Source: Sphaerochaeta pleomorpha str. Grapes
Lineage (GTDB): Bacteria > Spirochaetota > Spirochaetia > Sphaerochaetales > Sphaerochaetaceae
Length of the DNA stretch: 64,000 nt
Direction: 5' to 3'
Assembly (NCBI RefSeq): GCF_000236685.1
Contig: NC_016633.1
Span: forward strand, 3,038,001-3,102,000
Of this stretch, positions 5,107 through 64,000 are shown piece after piece. The notes beneath the pieces were generated by a model. That model saw only the letters and a list, made by a program, of their open reading frames with translations. It was not told where the DNA came from and made no database searches. Positions within the stretch are counted from its first letter, which is position 1. The number at the start of each line of letters is the position of its first letter. The position numbers and the translations under genes are program-made.

Positions 5107-6422
5107 TGGACGTTAATAGCATCGCAGTCCTAATACTGCTAGGGAGCTTTTTTGTCATGATCTTTCTCCGTTTCCCTATCGCCTATGCGGTAGGCCTTTC
5201 CTCTGTCTTTTGCATGCTCTTCCAAGGGAACAATTTGAATGATATCTGCCGACTTATGGTCAAAGGCATCAGCTCGTTCTCCTTGATGGCTGTTCCTTTT
5301 TTCATCACCATGGGTGTGTTGATGGGTTCCGGTGGAATCTCACAAAAGCTCATCGCTTTGGCAAATGCCTGCGTAGGGTGGATGAGGGGAGGGTTGGCCC
5401 AAGTAAATATTGTTGCTTCCTACTTCTTCGGGGGCATCTCCGGGTCGGCTGCTGCCGATACTGCTTCCCTCGGTTCAATCCTCATTCCTATGATGGTCAA
5501 TGAAGGTTATGATGCAGACTTCTCCACTGCCGTCACCATTACCAGTTCCTGTGAGGGACTGCTTGTACCTCCGAGTCACAACATGGTCATCTATGCGACA
5601 ACGATAGGGGGAATTTCCGTTGGAAGCCTTTTCCTAGCCGGCTATCTACCTGGCGCGCTCCTTGCTGTCACCTTGATGATCGGCTCTTACATTTTCGCGG
5701 TGAAGCGCGGTTATCCAAAGGGAGAAAAGTTCAGTCCAAAGAACTTCATTATCCAGTTGGGGAAATCCTTCTGGGCGCTCGCAGCAGTTATAATCGTTGT
5801 CATCGGTGTTGTGGCAGGCTTTTTTACTGCCACTGAATCTGCTGCAATTGCAGTAATCTATTCCTTGATTGTTTCGGTCTTCGTGTACAAAGGCCTAACT
5901 TGGAAGGGTGTATGGAAGGTCTTGGATGATTGTGTGGGTACGCTTGCCATAGTACTCATTCTCATCTCTACTTCCTCAGTGTTCGGGTATTGTCTCACTA
6001 CGCTTCATGTTCCCGATCTTGCAGCTGCTGCAATCACCAGTCTTACCAGCAATAGGATACTTTTGATTTTGCTTTTGAATGTCATTCTCTTGGTGTTGGG
6101 TGCGATCATGGATATGGCACCGATCATTCTCATTGCAACTCCGATTTTGTTCCCGATAGCAACAGGAGCCTGTGGCCTCGATCCTATCCAGTTCGGCATT
6201 ATGGTGGTGCTCAACTGTGGTATCGGGCTGTTGACCCCTCCGGTAGGAGCAGTGCTGTTCATTGGGTCGGCTGTAGCAAAGATTTCCATGGAACGGGTTG
6301 TCAAGGCAACGCTTCCTTTCTATATGTGCATGATTATAGCGCTGCTGTTGGTATCATTCGTTCCAGACATCAGTCTTTTTCTGCCTAAAGTTATCGGGGG
6401 GTATGTTCCTTTTGGTGTGTAG
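5106..6422 (+). CDS. dctM: TRAP transporter large permease DctM
   Basis: Large permease of the TRAP transporter (438 aa, about 12 hydrophobic helices), importing substrate with Na+ or H+. Recognisable family motifs include the N-terminal RFPIAYAVGLSS, the glycine/alanine/serine-rich GGISGSAAADTASLGSILIP segment and the C-terminal GLLTPPVGAVLF region. The order DctP-DctQ-DctM is complete. The gene is followed by a strong intrinsic terminator that ends the operon. Confidence 0.94.
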   Translation: MDVNSIAVLILLGSFFVMIFLRFPIAYAVGLSSVFCMLFQGNNLNDICRLMVKGISSFSLMAVPFFITMGVLMGSGGISQKLIALANACVGWMRGGLAQVNIVASYFFGGISGSAAADTASLGSILIPMMVNEGYDADFSTAVTITSSCEGLLVPPSHNMVIYATTIGGISVGSLFLAGYLPGALLAVTLMIGSYIFAVKRGYPKGEKFSPKNFIIQLGKSFWALAAVIIVVIGVVAGFFTATESAAIAVIYSLIVSVFVYKGLTWKGVWKVLDDCVGTLAIVLILISTSSVFGYCLTTLHVPDLAAAAITSLTSNRILLILLLNVILLVLGAIMDMAPIILIATPILFPIATGACGLDPIQFGIMVVLNCGIGLLTPPVGAVLFIGSAVAKISMERVVKATLPFYMCMIIALLLVSFVPDISLFLPKVIGGYVPFGV

Positions 6423-6449
6423 TGTTTTAACGTAACGTATTTCATGTAC

Positions 6450-6490
6450 AAAGAGGCCATCTCAAAATCAAGTTTTGAAATGGCCTCTTT
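6450..6490 (+). terminator. Intrinsic terminator after dctM
   Basis: Long near-perfect hairpin: the arm AAAGAGGCCAT plus an inner CTCAAAA pairs with TTTTGAA plus ATGGCCTCTTT, with a small loop. The right arm ends in CTTTCG, so the terminal U run is short, but stem length and position 28 bp after the stop make termination very likely. The AAAG/CTTT ends let it work from either strand. Confidence 0.85.
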
Positions 6491-6518
6491 CGCATTTACC
6501 CAGGCATGGACAATACCC

Positions 6519-6556
6519 TGAGATCCCTTCGTCTCAGAATGCATGAAGGGATCTCA
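6519..6556. repeat. 12-bp perfect inverted repeat
   Basis: TGAGATCCCTTC (6519-6530) is repeated in inverted orientation at 6545-6556 around a 14-nt loop. It lies between the operon terminator and transposase remnants. It may be a second hairpin or a leftover insertion-sequence end; it lacks a U run. Confidence 0.6.
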
Positions 6557-6657
6557 TAAGATATAAGATGCCAAACACTGAAGCAAACTGTGAATGTCAA
6601 GGAAGTTTTTCATTGAGGAGGTGAAGACATTATCTTGGACTCCATAACGAGAGGGGA

Positions 6658-7161
6658 ATGTATTCATACGAAGAAAGGAAGAAAGCCGTTGAACTTTATA
6701 TAAAGTTTGACAAGAGCGCTTGTTCCGTCGTAAGGGAACTTGGGTATCCCACCGGGGTCCTGTGCAGTGCGACTCCCCACAAGCCGGCCGCTTATTTCCA
6801 GTATGACCTATCACGCTCCAGCGATGTGCTGAAGGGCATGGTGGGGGAGTACAACGGATATCTGCAGGCTGACGCCGACGCCGGCTACCAGACCAGCAAA
6901 CAGGATTACCGGTTCACCCTCTGCCTTTGTGCTGCGCACCTGAGGAGGAAATTCGTCGATGCCCAGAAGGCCGGCGCCTACAAGCAGGGTTCGCCCGGGT
7001 ACATCACCCTTGAACGAAAAATTCCGCCGGTGAAGCCGAGCTCACAGGCTCTTTTCTATCAGAAATACCAAACCGATTATATGTTCTTTACGCTGCTCAT
7101 TTGTCTCGTTTCAGTACTGAAAAGCATTCAACAAAAAACCAGGATTGGTTTCTGCTGTTGA
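6658..7161 (+). pseudogene. Decayed transposase remnants (IS3-like and IS66-like pieces)
   Basis: The open frame is a patchwork. Its first ~31 residues (MYSYEERKKAVELYIKF…VVRELGYP) resemble the helix-turn-helix start of an IS3-family OrfA. From about residue 45 it resembles IS66 transposase: LKGMVGEYNGYLQADADAGYQ, then CAAHLRRKFVDAQKAG, corresponding to the family's Asp-bearing strand and C-x-H-xRRkF region. The remaining catalytic core is missing and the tail (after about residue 125) matches nothing. No intact IS end or target duplication was seen. It cannot encode an active transposase. Two different families in one frame imply successive insertions and deletions. Confidence 0.7.
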
Positions 7162-7189
7162 CTATTTACAGAAATCAAGTTGACTGGTC

Positions 7190-7282
7190 TTGCCAGAGGA
7201 CGATGCAAGTCATGCTGTGGATGTGTTTTATGCTTATCCTACGGTTTATCAGACAGATCCCTTCATCAGAAGTAGCCAATAA
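7190..7282 (+). pseudogene. Fragment resembling the N-terminus of a DUF3089-type esterase
   Basis: Reading from 7190 gives LPEDDASHAVDVFYAYPTVY and then QTDPFIRSSQ to a stop at 7280. The DVFYxxPTxY block is characteristic of DUF3089 lipase-like proteins. The preceding codons (YLQKSS, stop, LV) also fit that family's start but contain a stop. No downstream catalytic part remains. It is scored as a gene relic from the block motif alone. Confidence 0.4.
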
Positions 7283-7416
7283 CCTATAACGCATTCCTTA
7301 CGTAAGAATGCATCTCTACTTTGGATAAATGTAATTGTGGAATTCCCATTTTCTATGCTAACTTTTCATGACAGGTGCACAAATTCATCTAGAATCGGAA
7401 GAAAACAAACCTTTAT

Positions 7417-10220: not shown

Positions 10221-11308
10221 GTAAAATGAAAAAAAGCTTTTCTCACCTTTTTCTCCCACTCTCGGTTATGGCTCTGCTTATTATCATCAATCTGGTAAAG
10301 GGCGCCGATTATTTCCGCATTACCATGGTTAATGGGGCATTATACGGAAATATCCCGAATATCTTGTTTGGGGCTTCGGAGTTAGTCATTTTGTCCATAG
10401 GTATGACTTTGATAACTGCATCTTCACGAGGACAGGACATCAGTATTGGGGAAAGTGCGACCATTACTTCCGCAATATTTGTCCAATATGTCCTTCAAGC
10501 CAGTGAGGTCACACCTCTTACCATAGTTGTAGCTTTCCTTTTAAGTTGCGTCGTGGGCTTGGTTCTTGGTGCATTTAACGGCACCCTGGTTTCTATATTC
10601 AAGGTTCAGCCGATGGTTGCATCCCTCATACTGTTTACCGGGGGCAGGTCTATAGCCTTTATGATCGACGGGAAATTGTCTCCCATCCTGGCTAACGATA
10701 TATCGAATAAAATCGGCACTGTAATACCGGGAATACCAATACCAACTCCAATTATCCTGACTGTTGTTTTCATTGTTCTTATCGCAGTGGTGTTCAAGAC
10801 AACGAATCTCAGGCTCTATGTAGAGGCTGTTGGAATAAACCCGAATGCGGCACGTCTGAATGGTATCAATCCAAAGAAAATCATATTTCTGACCTTTTTG
10901 ATTATGGGTTTCTGTTCTGCAGTTGCGGGCTTCATCGCAGTTAACAAGGCAGGTCGTCACGATAGTGTAAACTTGCTCAAACTGATCATGATGGATGCAA
11001 TCCTTGCCGTGGCAATAGGCGGAAACTCTCTAGGCGGTGGAAAGTTCAGCATTACCGGTTCCATAATCGGTGCATACACCATAGAGATGCTGAACAGGAC
11101 CCTGCTTAGGCTGGAGATTGAACCGGCGATGATCAAGGTATTCAAGGCAATCTTCATTATCATTCTCATGGTAGTTGCATCGCCTGTAGCCAGAGCTTTT
11201 TTCACGAAAGCACTGGATAAGGTACGCTCTTTAAATAAGAGAAAGGGAAGTGTCCCAAACGATGCTCATATTCCCACCATGAACATAGCAGGGAAGAAGG
11301 AGGAATAG
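10217..11308 (+). CDS. Sugar ABC transporter permease 1 (YtfT/RbsC class)
   Basis: Inner-membrane permease of the BPD_transp_2 (ribose/galactose) family, 363 aa with 8-10 helices. It shows RGQDISIGESATITSAIF, GAFNGTLVSIFKVQPMVASLIL and the EAVGINPNAARLNGINPKK loop, which contacts the ATPase. The protein ends in a polar tail after about residue 335. It is coupled to the ATPase gene by a 4-bp overlap and to the second permease by a 1-bp gap. Confidence 0.92.
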   Translation: MSKMKKSFSHLFLPLSVMALLIIINLVKGADYFRITMVNGALYGNIPNILFGASELVILSIGMTLITASSRGQDISIGESATITSAIFVQYVLQASEVTPLTIVVAFLLSCVVGLVLGAFNGTLVSIFKVQPMVASLILFTGGRSIAFMIDGKLSPILANDISNKIGTVIPGIPIPTPIILTVVFIVLIAVVFKTTNLRLYVEAVGINPNAARLNGINPKKIIFLTFLIMGFCSAVAGFIAVNKAGRHDSVNLLKLIMMDAILAVAIGGNSLGGGKFSITGSIIGAYTIEMLNRTLLRLEIEPAMIKVFKAIFIIILMVVASPVARAFFTKALDKVRSLNKRKGSVPNDAHIPTMNIAGKKEE

Positions 11309-11309
11309 G

Positions 11310-12395
11310 ATGGCTTCTGTGAACGTAATCAAACCAAAAACAAGGATGTCGAATTCGAATATTCTGTTTCTCATAGCTGCGGTCATATTTGTATTGATGT
11401 ACCTATTTGCAATCATCAGTTATCCAGGCAGTTTCACGCAGTTTCAGACTTTCTTCGACTTGTTCAATCTGAATGCTCCACTCATCATTATGACACTGGG
11501 TTTGTGCATCGTAATGGTCGGTGGAGGTATCGATATCTCTATTGGTTCAGTGTGCGGGTTGGTGACAATGGCCTGTGCCGTATTTCTGGAATCCGATAAG
11601 GGGAACATCGGTGGTGCCATCCTTATTTCTCTGGGCATAGGTATCGCTTTCGGTATCTTACAGGGGTATCTCATATCCTATCTAGAGATTCAACCGTTTA
11701 TCATTACCTTGTCAGGGTTGTTCTTGGCTCAGGGATTGCTGACCACACTTCACAAAGATCCAATCAACGTAACCATGCCTGCATTCGTGAGGTTAAGGGA
11801 TTTTGATATTGTGATTACATGGCTTGGCACGAAAAACAGACTGGGTGTTTTCATTCCGTGTGAAATTAAACCAGGCACGATAATTGTTGTAATCCTTCTT
11901 ATCCTGCTTGCATCCGTGATGAAGTGGTCTCGTTTCGGGCGCAATGTCTACGCCGTTGGTGGCAATAGTCATAGCGCTAATATGCTCGGCATCAACGTTA
12001 AGAAAACGATGTTTCTCACCTATGTGATAAGTGGATTGACAGCTGGTCTCGCGGGCTTTGTGTACATAATGACAACAGGAGCCGGCAATGTCGGGAATGC
12101 GTCTGGAGCCGAAATGAAAGCAATAGCTTCGGCTATCATTGGTGGTACACTGCTCAACGGCGGGGTAGGAAACCTGCTTGGGGCACCAATAGGCACCCTA
12201 ACTCTCTTGGTAATTAACGAACTGATCCGTGCAGCTGGTGTTCAATCAAACTTTCAAGCGATGGTAAGCGGACTTCTGCTATATTTCTTCATAGTGTTGC
12301 AAAGTATCATCATGTCGCTTCGTGACAAGAAGAGATTTAGTTTAGCTCTACCGTCTTGGCTGCGATTGTCAAACAAAGGACAGCCCGGAAACTAA
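11310..12395 (+). CDS. Sugar ABC transporter permease 2 (YjfF/RbsC class)
   Basis: Second permease of the same importer, 361 aa, same family as its neighbour but clearly diverged. It has GGGIDISIGSVCGLVTM, the AVGGNSHSANMLGINVKK ATPase-contact loop and GGTLLNGGVGNLLGAPIGT. Two different permeases per ATPase match the ytfT/yjfF arrangement, supporting a heterodimeric channel. It is the last gene of the operon and converges on the regulator at 12430 with 34 bp between the stop codons. Confidence 0.92.
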   Translation: MASVNVIKPKTRMSNSNILFLIAAVIFVLMYLFAIISYPGSFTQFQTFFDLFNLNAPLIIMTLGLCIVMVGGGIDISIGSVCGLVTMACAVFLESDKGNIGGAILISLGIGIAFGILQGYLISYLEIQPFIITLSGLFLAQGLLTTLHKDPINVTMPAFVRLRDFDIVITWLGTKNRLGVFIPCEIKPGTIIVVILLILLASVMKWSRFGRNVYAVGGNSHSANMLGINVKKTMFLTYVISGLTAGLAGFVYIMTTGAGNVGNASGAEMKAIASAIIGGTLLNGGVGNLLGAPIGTLTLLVINELIRAAGVQSNFQAMVSGLLLYFFIVLQSIIMSLRDKKRFSLALPSWLRLSNKGQPGN

Positions 12396-37478: not shown

Positions 37479-38045
37479 CTATACTTGGATCTCCATCCCA
37501 TTCTTGAAAATAAACCGCACATCTTCTTTGCTGTAGATCACAGCATGATCGGCAAGGAAATACCAAAGGTGCTCGGTGAATTCGGTAACCACACCCTCCT
37601 GCTTCTTCAACCCTTGAGAAACAGTTCTGTTTTTGTCTTTCAAGACTTCCGTTCATGTATCGCGCCTTCCAAATTTGTCAGATGTTTGTTGACCTCGGTG
37701 TACTCGCTGCTAAGTTGTTTGAAACGGTCCTGATATGTGTGCTGGTCCATTGCTACATTGGCATTCTCGGTATTGAGTTTTTCCATGCGTGAGACAATTT
37801 CGCGACGTTCAACTCTCACCGCTTCCAGCTGTGCTTCATTTTGGGAAGTGTTGAAGATTTCTTCGGTTAGCTTCCCAAAGTTTCCTATGATTTCATCCTT
37901 ACGAGTGATGATACTGTTGACCGCTTTTACGAACATGTCTTGCAATGCATCCTCATACAAGTGTGGAGAGCTGCACTTGTGGTGACGATCAGCATATTTT
38001 TCATTGCACTGCCAGACAATCTTAATGAAATATTGGGAAGAGCTG
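37479..38045 (-). pseudogene. Frameshifted C-terminal remnant of a serine recombinase
   Basis: Minus-strand remnant of a recombinase like the one at 17685. Reading from about 38045 gives SQYFIKIVWQCNEKYADRH and HKCSSPHLYEDALQDMFVKAVNSI, the second half of the zinc ribbon, then the coiled coil (RVERREIVSRMEKLNTENANV). The frame breaks near 37640, but another frame continues with LKKQEGVVTEFTEHLWYFLA and YSKEDVRFIFKNGMEIQV to a stop at 37479, the usual recombinase ending. Catalytic and DNA-binding domains are missing. It marks the right side of the metal/stress island, next to the prophage. Confidence 0.8.
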
Positions 38046-38221
38046 TCCTCACAGTTAATACTATTGAAAAGATTGCAAACCAGATCAGTTCGCAGCAAAA
38101 GGTTCAAAACGATGATAGACATATAGATCTTTCTGAGTTTCCAACAGAGACGATTCTAGCAAAAGAGTAATTTACTTCATCCCTAAGAATATCGTCCCAA
38201 GCATTGGATATTCAATGCCGT

Positions 38222-39490
38222 TCATTGTTTGATACTCTGGATCCCATGCCGGTTCCCTTTCTCCATTGCTTCAACAGCCCAGTCGATCGGTTCCAATCCC
38301 TCAAGCCGGTTGTACTCGTCCCAGTACCGTCTGGCCCATTTGACCAGCAGCTTGGTTATCTCGCAGATGTAGGTCGTCCGCCTGAATTCGCCGAACTCCG
38401 AATAGCAACCTCCGATGCAGTATGAACAGGCACTCTCCACCTCGCAGGTCCTGCACTTTTCGTCGAGTGAGCAATTGGAGCGATAGGCGCCTTCGCGCAC
38501 TCTCAGAAAGTTCTCCTTGTGGGTAAACCCTTCCTTGGCAGTCCCGACGATGAACTCTGCCTTGTCGATTTGGGTATGCGGCAGCCATCTGATGCACGGA
38601 TAGATCCTACCGTCCACCGAGAGGGCAGGCATGGCTCCGCTTCCGCAGTGGCCGGTACAGTCCCAGTCAGGTCCTGTGGACAGGTGTGCGTAGCCGAATT
38701 GCTCCTTGCTGAGCATGCTCCAAAACAGATCGTCGCGATGCTCGAGTACATAGGCGGTGCACTTCTCCATCTGACGGTCCAACTCATCATAGTCGGTTTG
38801 TGTGCATCCGGTATCCTCCATGATGAAGTTCTGGTTGATGTACCGCAGTCCCAGCTGTTCATGCAAATACACCAGCGAGTCGTAAAGGTAGGGGATGCTC
38901 TGGCGGTTTGCGGTGGACTTTGTCTGCATCGACTGGATCGGGAAGGTCTTCTTATACCACGGCCAATGGCGGATGATGCTCTGCATCGAACCGGACCCAT
39001 CGGAGAACACCCGGTTTGCGTCATGGATCTCAGGACAGCCATCCAGCGATATGCCCACCAGCAAGAGGTCCTTGTATTTCTCGCAGAACCGCCTGGCCTG
39101 CTCGGAAAAGAGCGTGCCGTTGGTGGAAATGGAGAAATGAAGCTTGCCCCGCCAGTTTTTGGCATTGGGGGTATCGGTGGTCATCACCTTGGCCAGCGTG
39201 TAGGAGCAGATCTCATCCAAAAACGGCACATCCATGAAGCTGTCGCCACCGATGAAGTCCACAACCAACCCTTTCTGGTAGGCCTTGCGGAACACTGGAT
39301 CCGGATCATCGAGCAGCCCTGCAGGATCGGGATCGGTGAGGATGTGGCCGATGAATGCCTTCGCATCCTCCATCGAAAGCGTTCTTCTTCTCTTGTGCAC
39401 CTCATAGCAGTAGGTGCACCTGAGGTTGCAGTCTTCGGTGGTGTTCAGCGTCACGTTGAACAAGCCGGGTTCTCTAAAGGGAATGAGCAT
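38222..39490 (-). CDS. Radical SAM/SPASM enzyme, probable Cys-rich peptide maturase
   Basis: 422 aa from ATG 39490; the longer frame overlaps the previous gene. A radical SAM core binds [4Fe-4S] through Cys21, Cys25 and Cys28 (CNLRCTYCYE); a GG motif (FIGGDSFMD) and a Ser/Thr-rich STNGTLFS strand follow. The C-terminal third is a SPASM domain with auxiliary-cluster cysteines (CGSGAMPALSVDGRIYPC, then CSLDEKCRTCEVESAC and CIGGCYSEFG…C). This class includes sulfatase maturases and enzymes that crosslink Cys in RiPPs. Its start follows the Cys-rich gene's stop by one base (TGA-T-ATG), so that protein is the likely substrate; the reaction (thioether formation or other) is inferred. Confidence 0.9.
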   Translation of the reverse strand: MLIPFREPGLFNVTLNTTEDCNLRCTYCYEVHKRRRTLSMEDAKAFIGHILTDPDPAGLLDDPDPVFRKAYQKGLVVDFIGGDSFMDVPFLDEICSYTLAKVMTTDTPNAKNWRGKLHFSISTNGTLFSEQARRFCEKYKDLLLVGISLDGCPEIHDANRVFSDGSGSMQSIIRHWPWYKKTFPIQSMQTKSTANRQSIPYLYDSLVYLHEQLGLRYINQNFIMEDTGCTQTDYDELDRQMEKCTAYVLEHRDDLFWSMLSKEQFGYAHLSTGPDWDCTGHCGSGAMPALSVDGRIYPCIRWLPHTQIDKAEFIVGTAKEGFTHKENFLRVREGAYRSNCSLDEKCRTCEVESACSYCIGGCYSEFGEFRRTTYICEITKLLVKWARRYWDEYNRLEGLEPIDWAVEAMEKGNRHGIQSIKQ

Positions 39491-39491
39491 A

Positions 39492-40139
39492 TCAGCCTCC
39501 AATGCGGGATGAGTTCGAGCAACCGCTCGAGCAGGAATTCTTGCATGCACCCGAGCAGTTCACATTGCAACTGGCGTTGCAGTTGGTACTGCAGGAGGTA
39601 CAGCCCGAGCAGGCACTTTGGCAATTGCCGGTGCATCCACCACAGCCGCGACATCCTCCGCATCCGCTGCACCCATGGCACGAAACACACCACAGTCCCC
39701 CTTTACAGCTGTAGCAGTTGCCCGAACATCCGCTGCAGCCCGAACAACCGCTGCACCCGGTGCACGAACTGGTACATCCTCCGGTGCAATTGTGGCAGCC
39801 GTTGTAGCACGTCGAGGTACACGTATTGCTGCAATTGGCACAGCCGCGCAGATCATTGATGTCCTGTTTGTACTGGTCGATCTGGCTCAGCAGATTGGCG
39901 CTGATCAGGCTCCCCGTTGCAACCGATGAGATGGGGTAGGTGGTGTACAGAAGCGCGCGGGTATTACCCTGCAGAGCATCCTTCATCGAGTTCATATCCG
40001 AGGCTCTCATGGGAAGGCCGATGGCAAAGCCAGCAGGCGGGGAGAACACATAATAGTTGTCGTAGCGCTGGTAGCCGTTGACAAGGAAGGCCTCCTGGAT
40101 CGCCTCGAAGCGGCTTTTGATATCATTATAGGTTCCCAT
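39492..40139 (-). CDS. Cys-rich protein with ~95-residue head, candidate radical SAM substrate
   Basis: 215 aa. The first ~95 residues look like an ordinary folded domain (YNDIKSRFEAIQEAFLVNGY, YYVFSPPAGFAIGLPMRASD, LISANLLSQIDQYKQDINDL). The remainder is almost wholly Cys, Gly, Ser, Asn and Thr: I count about 31 Cys in the last ~115 residues, mostly spaced CxxC or CxxxC (GCSGCSGCSGC, CTGNCQSAC). ATG 40139 overlaps the upstream stop as TGATG, with AGGAG upstream; the GTG three bases earlier is less likely. No signal peptide. It is far larger than usual RiPP precursors, and lies directly after the tail fibre region. It may be a virion or tail-tip protein that is modified before assembly. Confidence 0.85.
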   Translation of the reverse strand: MGTYNDIKSRFEAIQEAFLVNGYQRYDNYYVFSPPAGFAIGLPMRASDMNSMKDALQGNTRALLYTTYPISSVATGSLISANLLSQIDQYKQDINDLRGCANCSNTCTSTCYNGCHNCTGGCTSSCTGCSGCSGCSGCSGNCYSCKGGLWCVSCHGCSGCGGCRGCGGCTGNCQSACSGCTSCSTNCNASCNVNCSGACKNSCSSGCSNSSRIGG

Positions 40140-40453
40140 CACGGCTCCTCATGGGCGAAGCACTCACCGTTGATCACCAGGAGCTCGCCCTCCGGGTAAT
40201 TGTAATGGCTACGGACGCGACGCTCCCAGGTGGCATACAGGAACCTGCCCTCCGCCATCTCGTCGAAGACAGCCTTGAAGTAGGCGTAGATGTCCCTGTC
40301 CTGCTCAAATCGGTAGGATGCGTACACCTCAGCCTTCAGGGCGGTCTGTGCGGTATTGATCTTATCGATCGCCAGTTGCATGTCGGCGATCTCACTGTCG
40401 TCCAAGATAAAGGGCAGCTTGGTCAGCTGCCGTCCACATTCATTGCATTGCAT
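40139..40453 (-). CDS. Small CxxC protein of the Cys-rich/radical SAM set
   Basis: 104 aa, starting at ATG 40453 after AGGAGG. It opens with MQCNECGRQL, one knuckle of a zinc ribbon, followed by helical polar sequence and an aromatic C-terminus (FLYATWERRVRSHYNYPEGELL). It is coupled to the Cys-rich gene by a TGATG overlap. It is not recognised; it could be a chaperone or partner for the Cys-rich protein, or a tail-fibre assembly factor. Confidence 0.7.
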   Translation of the reverse strand: MQCNECGRQLTKLPFILDDSEIADMQLAIDKINTAQTALKAEVYASYRFEQDRDIYAYFKAVFDEMAEGRFLYATWERRVRSHYNYPEGELLVINGECFAHEEP

Positions 40454-40464
40454 GGTTGTTCCTC

Positions 40465-43400
40465 CTAGTTCCATACAGCCCCCCACACCTTGTTGGCGGT
40501 GCCTTGTGTATTCACATTTCCCGTCACATTACCGGTGACGTTGCCACTCACATTCCCACTCACGCTCCCTTGCAGATTCCCATGGAACGTGTTCGCATGG
40601 ACATTCGCATATGGATTCGAGGACACGCCGATATCAAATTGGCTGGCTTGTTGGGGATACAGGGCCTTGGTATATGCTCCCTTCGCCTCGGCGATCACGG
40701 TGAAGGAGATCGAAAGGGCAGAGAACAGGTCGTTGCTGCGGATGCGAGAGGTAACTCCCCCGGCACCGGTGATCGTCAAACTGGTTCCCGACCAGCTTAC
40801 GATCGCAGGACTCGCCACAGGTCCTTCGATGCTGTTGTAGATGCGGCTCCAGGCAATGGCGATGCTTTGGAACATGTCGAAGGCCCCGGCAGCCACCTGG
40901 GTGCCAGCTTTGAAGATGCCTGCGAACTTGTAGTAGAACGAGCCTAGAGCTGCAGAAAGGTTGGTCCCGTCGAAGATGAACGTGCCGGCATAATAATCCT
41001 TTGCTGTGGTATGGCTGCTGATCTTTGCCCCCTGCCCATCCAGGAGGTTCACTCCCACATCATAGGCGCTGTAGTTGTAGGCTGCACTGAGTGTCCCGGC
41101 CGTATAGGAGGTGGGTGTTGCCTCACCCAGCGTTAGGGCACTGAGATACCCCGCGCTGTCGATGGCGTAGAACACCCGCTGTAGCGTGGTACCCGTCGAA
41201 ACGGGATTGGCTCCACTGGCGGCATAGACGGCAGCTCCCATTTTGGTGGGCGTGTAGCCCAGGGAGCGTTTGGACCAGATGGTTCCTCCGTTGCCCGAGA
41301 CATAGTAATACGCACTGCCGTATTCATAGGCGATGAAGAACCCGTTGCCCCAAGCTATGCTGCTGGGGCACGTGCTGGCGATATTGATTGCACTCCAGTT
41401 CATCCCGTCTGTGCTTCGATACACCGATGCTGATGAGAGGGTGACATAGCTTACCTGGATGTAGACGCCGTTTCCGTATGCGATTCGCGAGTTCATGAAA
41501 TCGTTATTGTAGGATGGGAATGGATGGGCACAGGTGAAACCTGCGGCTACCCATCCGCTTCCGTTGGTCGAGCGTTTCCAATCGGAGGCCCCTCCGCCAA
41601 GCACATGGGCGTAAAAGTATCCATTGGCGAAGAACAGGTTGTCGTAAGCCTCGCTGGACAGCTCGCTCCACGAAGTGCCGTTCGCTCCACCGGAGAGTAC
41701 CCGGCGTTGGACCGAGCCCGAGCAGATCGCCAGGAAGATACCATTGCCGAATGCCAGACCAATGGTGGAAGGATACGCAGTGCTCAGCGAATAGGATGAG
41801 ACCGAGCCCACGTTCCCGGTGGGAAATGATTTGAGCGTCGAGCCCCACGCGACTACCATCCTGCCGTTTCCCTCCGCCAAGTGAGGGGTTGATGAGGATG
41901 TCGAACTGATGCCAGATACTCGTCCGGTCGTACAGGCAGCCGGGTCATACAAAACGCCGCTGAGCACTTGGCGTACCTTGACCGTCTTGCCCGCAACCGT
42001 CGCATGGTCGAGGGTGCGGCTCTCGTAGTCGCTCCAGGTGCCCCCTCCATCGAGCGAGTACTGCTTCTTGCCTGCAACCTCAGCACCTGTGGAGGTGATT
42101 TTCGCAAGGTAGTTGACTCCTCCGAGCTTTAGTGGAGACTGGGTGTAAGCAGGCAGGGCAGGGACGGTGAAAGCGGTTCCCGCATTTGCCGTGGTGACCT
42201 GCTGGTTGAGCAGGCTGCGGTCCTGATCACGCTCGCCAGAAGAGGTGACATGCAACACGTTCTCGAAGACGGTGGATACAGAGCCACCTTCCACCTTGGT
42301 GGCCATGAACGAGCCGCCCTTGTGCACAACCGCGTTGGCTGCGACCAGGGCGATGAGGTCCCCCATCACCGTCCCCATGTCCCAATAGGGGGTGGAGGAC
42401 AACGAGCCGTTGAATGATTCGCCGGTACGTACCTCGTTGACGGTGCGCAGCACATCGGCATCAAGGCGCTCGATGCGGGTCTCCGAGAGATCGGCGTTGC
42501 GGATGACCGTACCGACGAACTCGCTGGTTCCGTCGCTGTTGATGATGAAGCCCGAGTTCCCATCCCCGATCGCATGCTTTCCCATCGAGCGGATGCGTCC
42601 GGTATCGATGATCTGCAGATCCTGTGTGGAGAGCACATCGATATTCGCCGACTGCGCATACAGGGTACGATAGTATGCGTACAGTGCGGTGGAGGTGACG
42701 GGAATATTCGCCCCACCGAGGAGCACCGCGTTGCCGCATTTGCTCATCGCCTCGGGATATTGGGCTGCGTTCTGGCTGGTGATGGGAATCCACGAACCGC
42801 TGGCGAACACCTGGGGAACGTAGTCGTCCCCCGTCTGCAGCACATAACAATCCCCTTCGATTGCATCGCTGATGGTCCCGGGACCTCCCAGGATCCCGTA
42901 GCTCCTGGTGTACTCGGTCACATCGTTGGCCGAGAGGGTGAGTGTGCGTATCATCGTCTCGGTACTACCCAGACGGGTATAAGACATCGTGCAGGTGATA
43001 TCGATCTGGGGTGGCGCCTGCTTCTTGGGGATGGTGAGTGTCAGCTCTCCTCCCGCATAGGATTCGGCATTGATCAGCCATTGGAAGGTAGCGTTCTCGT
43101 ACCCCCGGCTATCGGCAGTGAGGACCACGACCGAATTTTCCACGCTGCGTACATTGCGCTCATAGGTGCTTCGGTTGCTTTTGATGGAAAACGAGATCGA
43201 ATTGCGCAGCAGGGTGTTCGCCCCGACATCCAAAAAAGGTTCTGCGTAGGTGATATGGGGTTCTTGGGGAGTGGAGTCGCTCCACACCTGTTTGACGCGC
43301 GTCCAGTACTCATAACCGTAATACCAAGGGCCGGGCAAGCTTTCGCTCCACTGTGTAGCGGCCCCCGGAGATAACCCTTCTTCAAGAAGCGCGAACTGGT

Positions 43401-43782
43401 GGATCGGGGTGACACTGAGCCCATCGGATCCCGCCTCCCCGTCAGAGCCCGCCTCTCCGGTCTCACCATAGGAGACGAATGAGGTGGCCAGCAGCTCGGT
43501 CTTGGACGAATCGGTGTAGATCTGCACATCGAAGGCACCCGCCGAGCTGTAGCTGTACGAGCGAACTCCACCTGTCATGGTCCCGCTTGCACCGCTTTGG
43601 GCCCAGCTGCTGCCGTCCCAGCTGCGTGCATGCACGTATACCGAGGGTGTGTACAGCGACCCGTTCTTGTAGAAAGCCAGATCCAAAATCCCTGAGGAGG
43701 CAGAAGACATCGTCAGCTGCAGTTGGTACGAGGGAGCATCGCTGAGGGATGTGAGGGTATAGCTTGCGCCGGTTAGTGCCAT
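40465..43782 (-). CDS. Phage tail fibre / host-recognition protein
   Basis: 1105 aa. β-rich N-terminus, a short collagen-like patch (GETGEAGSDGEAGSDG, about 107-122), Ig-like material to about 300, then a region resembling siphovirus tail tip proteins (GGANIPVTSTALYAYYRTLYAQSANIDVLSTQDLQI … GFIINSDGTSEFVGTVIRNADLSETRIERLDADVL). About 600-900 holds propeller-like repeats (AFGNGIFLAICSGS, FFANGYFYAHV, AYGNGVYIQVSY, AWGNGFFIAYEYGS). The C-terminus has tandem GNVxGNVx repeats ending KVWGAVWN, common in fibre tips. It very probably contacts the host surface. Confidence 0.85.
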   Translation of the reverse strand: MALTGASYTLTSLSDAPSYQLQLTMSSASSGILDLAFYKNGSLYTPSVYVHARSWDGSSWAQSGASGTMTGGVRSYSYSSAGAFDVQIYTDSSKTELLATSFVSYGETGEAGSDGEAGSDGLSVTPIHQFALLEEGLSPGAATQWSESLPGPWYYGYEYWTRVKQVWSDSTPQEPHITYAEPFLDVGANTLLRNSISFSIKSNRSTYERNVRSVENSVVVLTADSRGYENATFQWLINAESYAGGELTLTIPKKQAPPQIDITCTMSYTRLGSTETMIRTLTLSANDVTEYTRSYGILGGPGTISDAIEGDCYVLQTGDDYVPQVFASGSWIPITSQNAAQYPEAMSKCGNAVLLGGANIPVTSTALYAYYRTLYAQSANIDVLSTQDLQIIDTGRIRSMGKHAIGDGNSGFIINSDGTSEFVGTVIRNADLSETRIERLDADVLRTVNEVRTGESFNGSLSSTPYWDMGTVMGDLIALVAANAVVHKGGSFMATKVEGGSVSTVFENVLHVTSSGERDQDRSLLNQQVTTANAGTAFTVPALPAYTQSPLKLGGVNYLAKITSTGAEVAGKKQYSLDGGGTWSDYESRTLDHATVAGKTVKVRQVLSGVLYDPAACTTGRVSGISSTSSSTPHLAEGNGRMVVAWGSTLKSFPTGNVGSVSSYSLSTAYPSTIGLAFGNGIFLAICSGSVQRRVLSGGANGTSWSELSSEAYDNLFFANGYFYAHVLGGGASDWKRSTNGSGWVAAGFTCAHPFPSYNNDFMNSRIAYGNGVYIQVSYVTLSSASVYRSTDGMNWSAINIASTCPSSIAWGNGFFIAYEYGSAYYYVSGNGGTIWSKRSLGYTPTKMGAAVYAASGANPVSTGTTLQRVFYAIDSAGYLSALTLGEATPTSYTAGTLSAAYNYSAYDVGVNLLDGQGAKISSHTTAKDYYAGTFIFDGTNLSAALGSFYYKFAGIFKAGTQVAAGAFDMFQSIAIAWSRIYNSIEGPVASPAIVSWSGTSLTITGAGGVTSRIRSNDLFSALSISFTVIAEAKGAYTKALYPQQASQFDIGVSSNPYANVHANTFHGNLQGSVSGNVSGNVTGNVTGNVNTQGTANKVWGAVWN

Positions 43783-43797: not shown

Positions 43798-44844
43798 TCA
43801 GCTGACAGAACAGAAATAGGTGGCCTTGATCAACACGTCGTCGTGCGAGACGGATATTGCCTTCTTCTTGGTGGTGACGATCGAGCCATGGGCAACCGCC
43901 GTGGGGGTGAACGCCACCGCTGTTCCGTCCTTGTCGGTCTTGGTCCAGCTGTAGGTGAGGCTCACCCCGGTCCCGTCGATCTCCTCGCCGTTCTGATACA
44001 CACGGCAGATGAGGGTGGTGCTTCCCGTGTCGTTCTTGAAATAGCTTCCCGCGGTGGACTCGATGACCGCCTGGTAGGGATCGGTGACGTCCAGGATCGA
44101 AACGGCCTCGGTGTCGTAGCTGATGTTGAAAGTGTCGGAAGTGGCGTCGGTGTCCAGAATTGAGCACTTGAACATGGCAAACGAATCCACCATGGAAGGA
44201 GTGACAGCCAAGGTGGCCGCAGTTGCTCCTGCGATATTTTCCCAGACGGTCCCGTTGATCGATTTTTTCCACTGGTAGTCGAGGTTTGTCGTGTCCTTGG
44301 TGGTACCGCGGATGAGCTCGGCCTTGAGCGACAGGGAGGAGGGGCTGTGGTTCTTGAACTGGCTGCCTCCGGTGGCGTAAGCCCGGGCGACCACGAATGA
44401 GGTGCCGTTGGCCACCCGCGAGAGGGTGATGGCGACCGTCACGGGAAAGGCGAGGTTCAGAACCGGGTCGGTGTAGGTGCCGCTGAATTGGTAGTCGATC
44501 TGCCACACATCGGTCGTGAGCTTGTCCTCACTCACCGTGAGTACCCCGCTGGTGGCATTGATTGTTTCACCGTTGGAACCGCTGGTGACCGTAGTCCAGG
44601 TGGCAGAACCCGCGATGCGGCGCTTCCAGGTCTTGGCTGTCATGGTAGAAACGACATCGGTCCCTCCGGCCTTGCGCACCACGGGGGTGAGCTGCAGCGA
44701 GGTGTCTCCTGCCCACGAGGGGTTGAGGGTCTGGTTCGATGTATCGTACAGGCTGGTGAGGGGCAGATTGCTGTCGATACCGGTGATGAGGGAAATACCG
44801 TCGGTATAATCCATCAGCGTGAAACTGGCGCTTGTCTTTGCCAT
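43798..44844 (-). CDS. Tail protein with Ig-like domains
   Basis: 348 aa, all β-type sequence, no signal peptide or membrane helix. At least three Ig-like repeats can be seen; strands with W and C patterns recur (DYQWKKSINGTVWENI, LTYSWTKTDKDGTAVAF). The last ~90 residues parallel the end of the tail hub protein at 44857 (…TLICRVYQNGEEI… versus …TLTCHVHKNTTEI…), indicating a shared decorating module. It probably decorates the tail tip or baseplate, where Ig-like domains are common. Confidence 0.7.
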   Translation of the reverse strand: MAKTSASFTLMDYTDGISLITGIDSNLPLTSLYDTSNQTLNPSWAGDTSLQLTPVVRKAGGTDVVSTMTAKTWKRRIAGSATWTTVTSGSNGETINATSGVLTVSEDKLTTDVWQIDYQFSGTYTDPVLNLAFPVTVAITLSRVANGTSFVVARAYATGGSQFKNHSPSSLSLKAELIRGTTKDTTNLDYQWKKSINGTVWENIAGATAATLAVTPSMVDSFAMFKCSILDTDATSDTFNISYDTEAVSILDVTDPYQAVIESTAGSYFKNDTGSTTLICRVYQNGEEIDGTGVSLTYSWTKTDKDGTAVAFTPTAVAHGSIVTTKKKAISVSHDDVLIKATYFCSVS

Positions 44845-44856
44845 TGTATGTGCTCC

Positions 44857-46662
44857 TTATGCTTCGTAGCCGGTCAGGTCGATCTCACAGAAGAAGACCG
44901 TACGCCCGACGCAGTCTGCGTTTTTGATTTCGACACTCTTATGGGCGATTGCCTTTGATGAGGTGTTCCACCGCCCGTCATCGATCGGGTCGGCACTGAG
45001 GCGCTTCCACCGAAAGCGCGAGGCATCCAGCTCTTCGGTGATCTCGGTGGTGTTTTTGTGGACGTGGCAGGTGAGGATCGTATCGACCTGCTCGGGCCGG
45101 AAGATCGAGCCGTTGGACGACTGGATGGATACGGTGTACGACGATCCGTCCACCCCCGGTGGCCCCGGGGATCCGACGGTGTCGTTCTTGCCCCTGTCGA
45201 GTACCTGAAGGTAGGCTGGGGCACTCAGGTCGAATGCCGAGATGCCCACCGCCTCGTAGCGGTACACCGCACTCTCATCGGTGAAGGTGCGTGCGGTCAC
45301 CAGGACTGAAACATTCAGGCCGCTGAAGGCATCGTCGATCAGGCGTACCAGGGTGCCGCAATTCAAGTCGACGGCCGAGAAGAATGTGTACTGGCTGCCA
45401 GCATGGCGGTGGAACTGGCCCAGGAGGTTCGCATGTTCTTGGGCCAGGGTTCGCTCGTGTACGAACACCAGCTCCTCGGAAAGCAAATTGTCCGAATTTT
45501 CACCTTCGTAGACGCTGTCGGCTGTCCTGACGATGTTCGTGTCACGCACATAGATGATATCGGCATAGGCATCGAGTCTGGTGATGTGGTAGGCCAGCGT
45601 CCCGTTGTTGTGCGCCGCCACCTGCAGGTACGGACCGCCTGCAGCAGCGATGTTGGCGGTGATGTAGCCGCTTTCGGCGGTGAACTCGGTGCGCACGTTC
45701 GAGACGGCGATGATGTCGCTCGATCCCACGATATCGATCTCACTAGCGGCGTTGCAGGCTTCGATGAGGGCTAGAGTGCGGAAGCTGTCCGTCTGGGCTT
45801 CGGTCCACTCTCCTTGGGTATAGATTTCACTGCCGTCGAAGTGCGCACCACCTTCCAGCTTGAGGTAACAATACGGGTGCCCATCCCCTCTTTCTGTGGT
45901 ATTGCGGTACACCAGATAGTCGCCTGCCGTCCCTAAACGGGTAAATGAAACCCGCGCACTCTTGTACTGGCGGATCTTCTTGGAAAGCGTGATCGCCTTG
46001 CCTCCCACCACAACCAAGTCGTCCTTATCGAGGGTGGGAAGGTTCTCAGTGGAAGTGCAGTCCACCTTGAAGAGCCTGAGGTGTCCCAGTGCATCAAAGA
46101 AATACACATGACCCAGTTCATACACCAATTGGTCCAACAGCTCGCCGCAGGTGACCGATCCATCCACGCTTCGGGTGACCGGTGCAGTGAGGGAAATGCA
46201 ATCTGGTGATACGGTGATACCCGCTCTTGTGCAGATAGAGGCGATCGCCTCGCTGGCTGTGCAGTTGAATAGGTGCCGTCCACTTTCGATGAAAGCCTTT
46301 CCCAACAACCGGGTGCCGGTGTCCTCGATAGTGATCGCCAGCGCTTGCTTTCCGCTGTCGGTGAGCATCCAGTTGTAGCTGGTGGACAGGTATCCGGTGA
46401 ACACGGTTCCTGCCCCATCGGCGAGGATGGCTTTCACATCGCCTTCGGTGGCGATGATATCCTCGATTGCAGGGCAAGCCTTATCCAAGAGCAGATCAAC
46501 CTGATTCGAAGCGCTTTTCAAGCCGGACAGCAGCTGCTGGTGGAAGGTGATCGACCTGCGTGCGATATGCTGTTCGCCGATCGTCTGTACCAAGGAGTGT
46601 CCCTCCTCGAGGTCGCCTCCCAGGAAGGTGAGGGTGAGAGAGGGGCTGTGTATGATGCTCAT
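44857..46662 (-). CDS. Phage tail hub / tail-associated protein
   Basis: 601 aa, the first gene after the tape measure. The N-terminal ~200 residues resemble the gp27-like hub of siphovirus tails (QTIGEQHIARRSITFHQQ, VFTGYLSTSYNWMLTDSGKQALAITIEDTGTRLLGK, ASICTRAGITVSPD). After about residue 495 comes a GSPGPPG hinge and an Ig-like module matching that of the following protein. Such hubs connect tape measure, tube and fibres. No lysozyme motif was seen in it. Assignment rests on position plus overall style. Confidence 0.7.
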   Translation of the reverse strand: MSIIHSPSLTLTFLGGDLEEGHSLVQTIGEQHIARRSITFHQQLLSGLKSASNQVDLLLDKACPAIEDIIATEGDVKAILADGAGTVFTGYLSTSYNWMLTDSGKQALAITIEDTGTRLLGKAFIESGRHLFNCTASEAIASICTRAGITVSPDCISLTAPVTRSVDGSVTCGELLDQLVYELGHVYFFDALGHLRLFKVDCTSTENLPTLDKDDLVVVGGKAITLSKKIRQYKSARVSFTRLGTAGDYLVYRNTTERGDGHPYCYLKLEGGAHFDGSEIYTQGEWTEAQTDSFRTLALIEACNAASEIDIVGSSDIIAVSNVRTEFTAESGYITANIAAAGGPYLQVAAHNNGTLAYHITRLDAYADIIYVRDTNIVRTADSVYEGENSDNLLSEELVFVHERTLAQEHANLLGQFHRHAGSQYTFFSAVDLNCGTLVRLIDDAFSGLNVSVLVTARTFTDESAVYRYEAVGISAFDLSAPAYLQVLDRGKNDTVGSPGPPGVDGSSYTVSIQSSNGSIFRPEQVDTILTCHVHKNTTEITEELDASRFRWKRLSADPIDDGRWNTSSKAIAHKSVEIKNADCVGRTVFFCEIDLTGYEA

Positions 46663-61416: not shown

Positions 61417-61718
61417 GTATGCTCCCCCTTGCTCCCAAGCAGCGACAGAAAGTAATCGTCCATCTTCTTCTCCTGCTCCTCACTCTCCCCGTTGATCTCA
61501 TGGGTCCTCAGCGACTTGAAGATGACCTTGTCGTTCTCCAGTGCCATGACCAAGCCCATCTGGATCCTGCTGATGGTGGTCTTGATTTCCCTGAGGTCCT
61601 TGGCATAGGCAAGCCTGTCGTCGCTTTTCTTTGCAAGACGGTTGAGCAGCCACAGGACGATGCCCCCCGAGCCGAACAGGCATACCGAGAGAGTGGTGAC
61701 GAGGGTGATCTCATCCAT
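61413..61718 (-). CDS. Small membrane protein of the lysis cluster
   Basis: 101 aa: one N-terminal helix (about 6-27), then a charged helical cytoplasmic part (RLAKKSDDRLAYAKDLREIKTTISRIQMGL). It resembles single-helix holin accessory proteins such as XhlA or antiholins. It overlaps its neighbours by 4 and 8 bp, so it is translated with the lysis genes. Exact role uncertain. Confidence 0.6.
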   Translation of the reverse strand: MDEITLVTTLSVCLFGSGGIVLWLLNRLAKKSDDRLAYAKDLREIKTTISRIQMGLVMALENDKVIFKSLRTHEINGESEEQEKKMDDYFLSLLGSKGEHT

Positions 61719-62955
61719 CCTGGGCCTCCTGGGAGGCGACTACCTCATAGGGGTAATCCAATCCGTCGCGCTGGACGGTCACCCCTGACGTCGAGCCGGT
61801 GAGTTCGATGTAGCGCCTGACGATGACGTCGCAGTACTTCTCATCCAGCTCGATGGTGGCACAGCTCCGTTCGGTCTGCTCACAGGCGACCAGGGTGCTG
61901 CCGCTGCCGCCGAACGGGTCGAGCACCAGCGTGTTGCTCATCGAGGAGTTCATGATCGGGTAGGCCAGGAGGGCCACCGGCTTCATCGTGGGATGCTCGC
62001 CGTTCTTCTTGGGCTTGTCGAATTCCCAGATGGTCGATTCCTTGCGCCCGGTGTACCACAGGTGTTTGCCCTTCTTCTTCCATCCGAAGAGCACCGGCTC
62101 GTGCTGCCACTGGTAGGGCGAGCGGCCGAGCACCAGCGACTGCTTTTTCCAGATGCAGGTGCCCGAGAGGTAGAAACCCGCCTCACAGAAGGCCTTACGG
62201 AAGTTCAGTCCCTCGGTATCGGCATGGAATACGTAGATGGAGGCATCGTCGGCCATGTGCTTTGCGGTGTTCGTGAAGGCATCGAGCAGGAACTGCAGAA
62301 AAGCATCGCCTGCCATATTGTCGTTCTTGATCTTGCCGGCCGAGCCCTCATAGTTGACGTTGTAGGGTGGGTCGGTGACCACCAGGTTCGCCTTGGCACC
62401 CGCCATGAGCAGCTCGAATGTCTCGGCCTTGGTGCTGTCCCCGCATACCAAGCGGTGCCTTCCCAGTTTCCACAGGTCCCCACTCTTGGTGAGCGCTGGC
62501 TTTTCCAGTTCTGCTTCCACGTCGAAGTCGTCGTCGTGCACACCGTCGGCAAGCGAGTCCTTGAACAGGTCGTCGATCTCTGCCGGGTCGAAGCCGGTGA
62601 GCGATACGTCGAAGTCCAGACCCTGCAGATCGGTTATGAGCAAGGCCAACTTGTCCTTGTCCCACTCGCCGCTGATCTTGTTCAGTGCAATGTTGAGGGC
62701 CTTTTCCTTGTCCTCGGAGAGATCCACGACCACGCACTCGAGCTCGGTGTGCCCGGCATCCCTGAGGATTTTCAACCTCTGGTGGCCCCCTACGACCCGG
62801 CCGGTGGTCCTGTTCCAGATCACCGGTTCGACGTAGCCGAACTGCTCGATGGAGCGCTTGAGCTTCTCATACTCGGCATCGCCGCTCTTAAGGTCCTTGC
62901 GCGGGTTGTAGTCAGCAGGCAGCAACTCATCGATGTGTTTCTGTTCAATGGTCAT
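61711..62955 (-). CDS. ParB-domain DNA methyltransferase (β-class, N6-A or N4-C)
   Basis: 414 aa from ATG 62955 (AGGGAGA upstream; TTG 62961 is the alternative). Residues 1-110 form a ParB/Srx-like nuclease-fold domain (LLPADYNPRKDL, VVGGHQRLKILRDAG). The methylase has motif IV DPPY near 195-198 before the SAM motif DPFGGSGST near 347, the β-class order. Such phage enzymes protect DNA from host restriction or mark it. It is coupled to the SAM synthetase gene by an 11-bp overlap. Confidence 0.92.
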   Translation of the reverse strand: MTIEQKHIDELLPADYNPRKDLKSGDAEYEKLKRSIEQFGYVEPVIWNRTTGRVVGGHQRLKILRDAGHTELECVVVDLSEDKEKALNIALNKISGEWDKDKLALLITDLQGLDFDVSLTGFDPAEIDDLFKDSLADGVHDDDFDVEAELEKPALTKSGDLWKLGRHRLVCGDSTKAETFELLMAGAKANLVVTDPPYNVNYEGSAGKIKNDNMAGDAFLQFLLDAFTNTAKHMADDASIYVFHADTEGLNFRKAFCEAGFYLSGTCIWKKQSLVLGRSPYQWQHEPVLFGWKKKGKHLWYTGRKESTIWEFDKPKKNGEHPTMKPVALLAYPIMNSSMSNTLVLDPFGGSGSTLVACEQTERSCATIELDEKYCDVIVRRYIELTGSTSGVTVQRDGLDYPYEVVASQEAQDG

Positions 62956-64000
62956 GATCAAGTTCTCCCTTGAGCGCCTCGATATACCGCTCGCTCACCT
63001 GTTCCCACGCAAAGAGGGAATTGCCGAAATGGCCGTAGCAGGAGGTAAGGTTGTATATGGGACTGCGCAGCCCCAACTCCTCGATGATGTCCTTCGGCTT
63101 GAGGCTGAAAACCTTACTCACTGCCTCGGCAAGCCTGGCATCATCAACCCTGCCGGTTGCGAATGTGTGTACATTCACGGCAACAGGCTCGGCCTTTCCG
63201 ATGGCGTAGGAGATCGCTACACCGCAGCGCTTGGCAAGACCGGCTGAGACGATGTTCTTGGCGATCATGCGCGCCATGTAAGCCCCGCTTCGGTCCACCT
63301 TGGTCGCATCCTTGCCGCTGAAGGCGCCACCTCCGTGGAGTGCCAGGCCCCCGTAGGTGTCCACCATGATCTTGCGACCTGTCAGGCCGGTGTCGGCACC
63401 GGGCCCGCCCTCAACGAAACGGCCGGATGGGTTGATGAGGATACGGGTGTGTGCATCGATGGGGAAGTGAATGAAGGCAGGCTCGAGCACCTTTTCGATG
63501 AGCTCGCCCTTGAGGGTGTCCAGATTCTTGTCACGCTCATGCTGGACCGAGACGATGACGGCGGACACCCTGACGGGCTTGTCATTCTCGTACTCCACCG
63601 ATACCTGTGCCTTGCCGTCGCTGCGGATTCCCATGATGGTTCCGTTCTTCCTGCACGTGTCCAGGATGCTGCAGATGCGGTGGGAGAGTTCAAGAGGCAA
63701 GGGGATGCAGGTGGGTGTCTCGTCGGTTGCATATCCGTACACCGTGCCCTGGTCCCCGGCTCCCAATTCATCCACCTTACCCTCGGCATCCCTGATCTCC
63801 AGGGCTGTATCGACGCCGCCTGCAATGTCCGGACTCTGGTTGTGGAGGAACACGCTGATGGTGAATTCCTTGGGGTTGTAGCCACACTCTGCAAGGGCGG
63901 TCCGTACGGTTTGGCGTATGTTGACCTTGGTGCGGCTGGTGATCTCTCCGGCGACGATGATCCGGCCCTTGGTCGCCATGACCTCGCAGGCCACGCGCGA
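62945..64000 (-). CDS. metK: S-adenosylmethionine synthetase, cut by the window edge
   Basis: About 351 residues visible; the N-terminus (the usual GHPDK ATP motif) lies beyond 64000. Recognisable: ACEVMATKGRIIVAGEITS, GAGDQGTVYGYATDETP, GPGADTGLTGRKIMVDTYGG and the P-loop-like GGGAFSGKDATKVDRSGAY, all intact. It makes SAM from ATP and methionine. It overlaps the DNA methylase gene, so it belongs to the phage operon rather than to the host chromosome. It could supply cofactor for that enzyme and for the phage radical SAM protein. Confidence 0.93.
   Translation of the reverse strand, partial: SRVACEVMATKGRIIVAGEITSRTKVNIRQTVRTALAECGYNPKEFTISVFLHNQSPDIAGGVDTALEIRDAEGKVDELGAGDQGTVYGYATDETPTCIPLPLELSHRICSILDTCRKNGTIMGIRSDGKAQVSVEYENDKPVRVSAVIVSVQHERDKNLDTLKGELIEKVLEPAFIHFPIDAHTRILINPSGRFVEGGPGADTGLTGRKIMVDTYGGLALHGGGAFSGKDATKVDRSGAYMARMIAKNIVSAGLAKRCGVAISYAIGKAEPVAVNVHTFATGRVDDARLAEAVSKVFSLKPKDIIEELGLRSPIYNLTSCYGHFGNSLFAWEQVSERYIEALKGELDHDH

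Follow-up and report, generated by a model that had tools for sequence, protein, structure and literature searches.

A radical SAM/SPASM enzyme and a cysteine-array protein encoded behind a prophage tail fibre gene: a probable system for modifying a fibre-associated protein

Enzymes of the radical SAM/SPASM type carry a motif of seven cysteines, CX9-15GX4C-CX2CX5CX3C-C, in the SPASM domain (PMC6231123). One of them, CteB, is known to crosslink a Cys-rich peptide through thioethers (PMC8326336, PMC6231123), and the bridges of freyrasin are known to connect Cys to Asp (PMC8326336). Radical SAM genes have been reported in phages as well, where they are described as unusual or metabolic and their substrate is left unnamed (PMC12390700, PMC2853527). 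No description of a radical SAM enzyme paired with a Cys-array tail protein has been found in the open-access papers searched. In the current analysis a candidate for such a pair has been identified in a stretch of 64,000 nucleotides of Sphaerochaeta pleomorpha str. Grapes (NC_016633.1, positions 3,038,001 to 3,102,000), referred to here as the window, which belongs to a host genome of 3.59 Mb.

The window harbours a real prophage, with identified genes for terminase, portal, head protease and major capsid in addition to tail genes, and with replication and lysogeny-like genes that extend past the window edge. The minus strand encodes a tail hub/baseplate-type protein (44857..46662), used as the query for finding sibling prophages, a tail protein of phrog_3267 (43798..44844), which belongs to the same late operon as the genes of interest, and a tail fibre protein of 1105 aa (40465..43782). 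Directly downstream of the fibre gene is a translationally coupled cassette of three genes on the same strand. These encode a small accessory protein of 104 aa (40139..40453; ATG 40453, stop 40139), a Cys-array protein of 215 aa, the proposed substrate and a putative fibre-associated virion protein (39492..40139; ATG 40139, stop 39492), and a radical SAM/SPASM enzyme of 422 aa, the proposed maturase of the array (38222..39490; ATG 39490, stop 38222). Shine-Dalgarno-like runs precede all three starts (AGGAGG, GAGGAG and GGAGG), the first of which, recognised by sequence at 40461..40466 on the minus strand, overlaps the stop codon of the fibre gene. The accessory gene ends and the Cys-rich gene begins within a shared TGATG, and a gap of 1 nt separates the stop of the Cys-rich gene from the start of the enzyme gene; an alternative GTG start of the Cys-rich gene is possible one codon upstream of ATG 40139. 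An earlier sequence-only reading of this DNA had described overlapping or abutting coupled genes that follow the tail fibre gene in the late operon, and both descriptions are borne out, the fibre gene ending at 40465 and the accessory gene starting at 40453. Close copies of the cassette occur in four other genomes (G005, G025, G029 and G004) with enzyme identities of 94-98%. All three genes are under strong purifying selection: against six copies the enzyme has a dN/dS of 0.04-0.06, the Cys-rich protein one of 0.05-0.09 and the accessory protein one of 0.05-0.13.

Two further genes of the prophage have been noted. Directly behind the cassette is a fragment of a serine integrase (160 aa, 37640-38122, minus strand) that matches the C-terminal part only of its family (phrog_95 positions 398-515 of 651), and the prophage may be unable to excise unaided. 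An S-adenosylmethionine synthetase is encoded at 61711-63994 on the minus strand, with 48% identity to the enzyme that the host encodes in another part of the genome, by a gene that overlaps a ParB/DNA-methyltransferase gene; the phage could in this way supply SAM for methylation and for the radical SAM enzyme.

The enzyme has the CX3CX2C motif of the radical SAM superfamily at C21, C25 and C28, and its match to PF04055 (33.2 bits) exceeds the cut-off of 29.5. Seven SPASM cysteines (C282, C299, C346, C349, C355, C358 and C376) are invariant in 16 relatives and are arranged as C282-X11-G-X4-C299, C346-X2-C349-X5-C355-X2-C358 and C376, with one X2 where the motif has X3, so that all the cluster cysteines reported from the bare sequence are indeed present. 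Comparison with radical SAM peptide-maturase families assigns TIGR04115 as the best NCBIfam match (228.2 bits, 1.9e-67), at a score that misses the family cut-off of 350 bits, followed by PapB (NF047865, 1.6e-37) as the second-best family match and by the SCIFF maturases; the enzyme also matches phrog_1802 (5e-37). The nearest solved structure is CteB (5wgg, E 6.9e-47), which aligns across the whole SAM barrel and SPASM domain. The alignment starts after the N-terminal domain of CteB, at residue 94, and the SAM motif of the window enzyme begins at residue 21; a fused RRE is absent from this enzyme, there being no room for it N-terminal of the SAM motif. In the tree the enzyme belongs to a 100/100 clade together with viral contigs, a Treponema prophage and chromosomal copies of Termititenax. 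Phage relatives of a second clade (L041, L043, L045, L048, L049, L055 and L057) exceed the TIGR04115 cut-off, and the known family itself therefore includes phage members.

A similarity to prokaryotic viperins (1.7e-07) is confined to the SAM barrel and is of superfamily level, and a viperin identity was rejected. This weak likeness and the restriction-like genes in the downstream cargo of one sibling prophage would fit a modified array that acts inside the infected cell, in superinfection exclusion or counter-defence, and is no part of the virion. The superfamily-level nature of the likeness, the position in the late operon and the fusions of arrays to fibre domains make this highly improbable.

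All 31 cysteines of the Cys-array protein are placed within residues 100-207 of 215, in agreement with the count of about 31 made earlier for the last ~115 residues. They follow one another at a spacing of 3 (15 times), 4 (14 times) or 6 (once), that is 15 CX2 and 14 CX3, and no other ORF among the 293 of at least 60 aa in the window has such an array. Seven close copies retain 31/31 cysteines, although the codons of 18 have changed synonymously, and 12 of the 85 other columns in the region vary; the cysteines are therefore under selection, beyond chance. Asp and Glu are absent between the cysteines of the window array, and freyrasin-type Cys-to-Asp bonds are thus excluded by composition. Residues 1-99 form a tail-type N-terminal domain, a type that aligns with the N-terminal domain of the S74 fibre group in one pairwise profile comparison (hhalign 94%). 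The arrays of the relatives contain from 13 to 137 cysteines, with a spacing of 3, 4 or 5 that is kept while the sequence changes, and those of L007, L035 and L119 are almost pure CX3, unlike the mixed CX2/CX3 of the window. An AlphaFold model of the Cys-rich protein was discarded (pLDDT 36.7).

Dense thiols in the absence of charged residues readily bind metals, and SPASM enzymes are known for several reaction types, which would be in accordance with an array that is a redox domain or binds metals or clusters (Zn, Cu, Fe-S), beside an enzyme with another task, such as a single modification or an epimerisation. We consider this quite unlikely, since the His/Asp/Glu pattern is absent, 13 to 137 cysteines at a kept spacing suit a repeat that is processed stepwise, and the closest solved relative of the enzyme is thioether-forming.

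The N terminus of the accessory protein is MQCNEC, which contains the CxxC reported earlier for the window protein; CxxC is not a constant feature, being absent from the homologues of L118 and L032. Homologues of this protein adjoin the cassette in L007, L008, L032 and L118. AlphaFold predicts a helical hairpin (pLDDT 90), for which fold and sequence searches retrieved only generic helical hairpins with Z under 8 and no named relative. The accessory gene is a conserved third gene of the cassette, and its product is probably a partner of the modification. PqqD presents the substrate to PqqE (PMC8326336), and the accessory protein may have an analogous role or could supply an RRE function in trans, though its predicted fold is a helical hairpin.

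Viral and genome scans have been used to collect relatives of the enzyme down to ~25% identity, and pairing was counted over distinct loci with 1.5 kb of sequence on both sides, a Cys-array ORF being accepted within 1.5 kb on the same strand. At profile scores of at least 400 a Cys array is found beside the enzyme in 35 of the 36 distinct loci, the lone exception (L130) being a chromosomal enzyme with a C-terminal extension. The array adjoins the enzyme in 3/7 loci at scores of 230-400 and in 7/46 at 100-230. The converse search, started from Cys-repeat DNA patterns, gave eight proteins of this architecture with readable flanks (L317, L318, L336, L364, L366, L398, L402 and L426), all eight adjoined by the enzyme, and four more that are cut by contig ends. 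Other matches to the DNA patterns were set aside; they are mostly antisense or out-of-frame readings of repeats, DCxDC types and a Bacillus-type protein. The accessory protein also recurs within the enzyme clade. The sequence-only reading had pointed to two observations that would speak against the pair, namely enzyme homologues lying beside other substrates such as sulfatases and a Cys-rich protein occurring widely in the absence of a radical SAM gene. High-scoring relatives adjoin Cys arrays rather than sulfatases, and the enzyme accompanies every array protein that could be read on its flanks. These neighbourhoods strongly suggest that the enzyme and the Cys-array protein belong together and that the array is the substrate. 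A decayed enzyme gene with in-frame stops has also been observed, in a related Sphaerochaetaceae genome (L013, G012:C2:782868-786524), with no adjoining Cys-array gene.

Cassettes placed in the tail module after fibre genes have been identified in unrelated phages, which include, besides the window, L007, L045, L060, L135 and L136; siphophages, Mu-like phages and jumbo phages are all represented. In L136, L135 and L045 the cassette follows fibre or baseplate genes, in the 258-kb phage L007 it follows the fibres, and in the Mu-like L060 it is situated within the tail operon, with fibre genes on one side and the sheath gene (phrog_23, 6.8e-125) on the other. Several arrays are themselves fused to fibre or repeat domains. 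The array of L060 constitutes the C-terminus of a collagen-type fibre protein with phrog fibre matches, that of L037 follows an RCC1 propeller (PF13540, 2.5e-27), and in aquatic phages an array of CNCNYCTCNCNY repeats is followed by the Peptidase_S74 fibre chaperone domain, which scores above cut-off in 4/4 proteins tested; three radical SAM genes are present just upstream of these S74-fused arrays.

Some further arrangements have been observed in the phage sequences. Loci L073-L105 of aquatic phages, for example L105:7385-11859, encode several consecutive radical SAM enzymes and a protein in which Peptidase_S74 comes after CNCNYCTCNCNY repeats, and then glycosyltransferase-like proteins and further radical SAM enzymes. 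Two phage radical SAM maturases (L006:7410-9455 and L318:3006-5381, minus strand) are apparently interrupted by inteins inside CX3CX2C. The 195-kb phage L006 also has GITPYD/GITPFD repeats within or at the end of several proteins (5817-7328 and 11273-11749), near the intein-bearing radical SAM gene that has no Cys array, and they are possibly a different substrate tag.

The sibling prophages provide a natural comparison. The 1105-aa fibre is 96% identical in the cassette-bearing prophages L442 and L443, and the siblings L440 and L441 have unrelated fibres of 646 and 697 aa instead and are devoid of the cassette. The genome G029 contains three related prophages (portal 99, 96 and 86%); the cassette is present only where the fibre is that of 1105 aa, which implies that the cassette travels with the fibre type and is dispensable for general virion assembly. 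The cargo behind the cassette is variable among siblings and encoded on the opposite strand, while the cassette is constant. In one sibling this cargo includes two opposite-strand genes that may be restriction genes of the McrB/McrC type (L029:14459-17796). The position after the fibre genes, the fusions with fibre domains and the lack of the cassette in siblings with another fibre are the grounds for the assignment to the tail, and there is good reason from these gene arrangements to place the Cys-array protein in the virion. That a polypeptide of the tail tip or virion is crosslinked before its assembly, as the sequence-only reading had suggested, is the best-supported reading in view of the pairing, the fibre fusions and the sibling prophages.

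Related cassettes are not restricted to phages. In Termititenax/Margulisbacteria (L114-L132) ordinary chromosomal genes surround stand-alone cassettes of Cys array, accessory and radical SAM enzyme. In the assemblies examined one genome has as many as five such loci, the arrays reach 137 Cys, and some of the cassettes adjoin small HTH genes. A human-gut contig (L446:2222-6270), which comes from a phage collection and is read as chromosomal, encodes a CXXX-repeat protein with a Tat-signal-like leader, a radical SAM enzyme, a second Cys-bearing protein and tatA- and tatC-like genes, and probably represents a cell-surface version of the system. The machinery therefore also serves cells, with a use beyond virions. 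RiPP-type pairs had earlier been regarded as normally free-standing loci and the present one as set apart by its place behind the fibre gene; the place in a phage tail operon stands, and the system is found outside phages too.

Such chromosomal systems, one of them with a Tat signal, lend some weight to the possibility that the Cys-array protein is a secreted peptide (a bacteriocin, signal or toxin) carried as lysogenic-conversion cargo unrelated to the virion, as do the membership of the enzyme in a family of RiPP maturases and the position of the cassette, which is the final gene set and adjoins the integrase remnant, a place that lysogenic-conversion genes occupy as well. Leader removal and export, as for ranthipeptides and sactipeptides, would be required of a distant host gene, if any, since neither the three coupled genes nor those that come next encode a protease or a transporter. 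The cassette is on the same strand as the fibre gene and coupled to it, and it is kept while the opposite-strand cargo behind it changes between siblings. Mu-like phages and large jumbo phages have it inside their tail operons. Arrays are fused to fibre domains, and the proteins, of 215 to >700 aa, are far above the usual length of RiPP precursors. The secreted peptide is accordingly an unlikely explanation.

The arrangement extends to cultured jumbo phages. Erwinia phage Phobos and Salmonella phages SEGD1 and SPN3US have two radical SAM genes behind a virion structural gene, and Cys-array ORFs are found between the structural gene and the pair, for example one of 134 aa with 20 Cys and others of 128 and 132 aa with 21 Cys each (L444:6133-6519, L444:6532-6930; L447:6503-6907; NC_027402 143413-143817). 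In NC_027402 such ORFs occupy about 143.4-144.2 kb of the minus strand. GenBank records either lack these Erwinia and Salmonella genes or give them in a wrong reading frame or on the other strand, and one of the ORFs matches 45 phage records at the DNA level. SPN3US gp168 is reported as a candidate baseplate or tail fibre protein from mass spectrometry of virions (PMC5694885), and the gene adjoining this cluster is, judged by its length (5.2 kb), presumably gp168. The 7 kDa virion protein gp172 of SPN3US was also considered, but from the gene order it is presumably none of the Cys-array ORFs.

On the strength of gene content and order we propose that the cassette probably makes a modified tail-fibre-associated protein. 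The N-terminal ~100 residues of the Cys-array protein, a helical module that is also seen in phage fibre proteins, would probably be its point of attachment to the fibre or to the tail tip, and the C-terminal ~110 residues would expose a Cys every 3-4 residues. During late infection the radical SAM/SPASM enzyme, aided by the accessory protein, would modify the array. Most likely, cysteines would be joined through thioether bonds to a carbon in the backbone or side chain of a neighbouring Gly, Ser, Thr or Asn. The thioether chemistry, held with moderate confidence, is considered probable because the closest characterised relatives make thioethers and the array offers thiols beside Gly, Ser, Thr, Asn and Ala only. 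The product might be a rigid, reduction-proof and protease-resistant tip that contacts the host surface and is formed in the absence of oxygen or disulfides; a role in adsorption is suggested with weak to moderate confidence. A disulfide-free tip suits anaerobic hosts, and since phages of Salmonella and Erwinia also have the array, anaerobiosis is not the whole explanation. There is about an even chance that, in many unrelated tailed phages, the fibre tip that contacts the receptor is made from a radical-crosslinked Cys/Gly array by a phage-encoded radical SAM/SPASM enzyme; such tips would form a class of post-translationally modified virion proteins, and tip and fibre would be exchanged as one module of host recognition. 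RiPP-style maturation is apparently used on virion fibres. Such a role would explain what the radical SAM genes seen time and again in the structural clusters of phages do. It would also add enzyme-made crosslinks to the known routes of phage fibre stabilisation, and few peptide substrates of thioether-forming enzymes would be larger than these arrays of up to 137 Cys. As the SPN3US-group phages apparently share the arrangement in ORFs that are missing or in the wrong frame, existing virion mass-spectrometry data could be searched again.

Among the known systems, those of TIGR04115 share with the window the best family match and a Cys-repeat partner next door. They differ in that the window enzyme, at 228 against 350 bits, belongs to a separate 100/100 clade, and in that its partner, as compared with the CXXX targets of that family, alternates CX2 and CX3 and is a 215-aa protein with a tail-type domain. 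CteB and the SCIFF ranthipeptides (5wgg) share the alignment of SAM barrel and SPASM domain and a Cys-rich substrate, but the window enzyme lacks the N-terminal RRE, and dozens of Cys in a proposed fibre-associated protein take the place of six in a short precursor peptide. PapB of freyrasin (NF047865) has in common with the window its rank as second-best family match and a repeated Cys motif, which there gives many crosslinks. The Chimalliviridae/SPN3US-like and Campylobacter CP220-like phages resemble the window in having radical SAM genes within structural clusters, whereas their enzymes are only 25-31% identical to that of the window.
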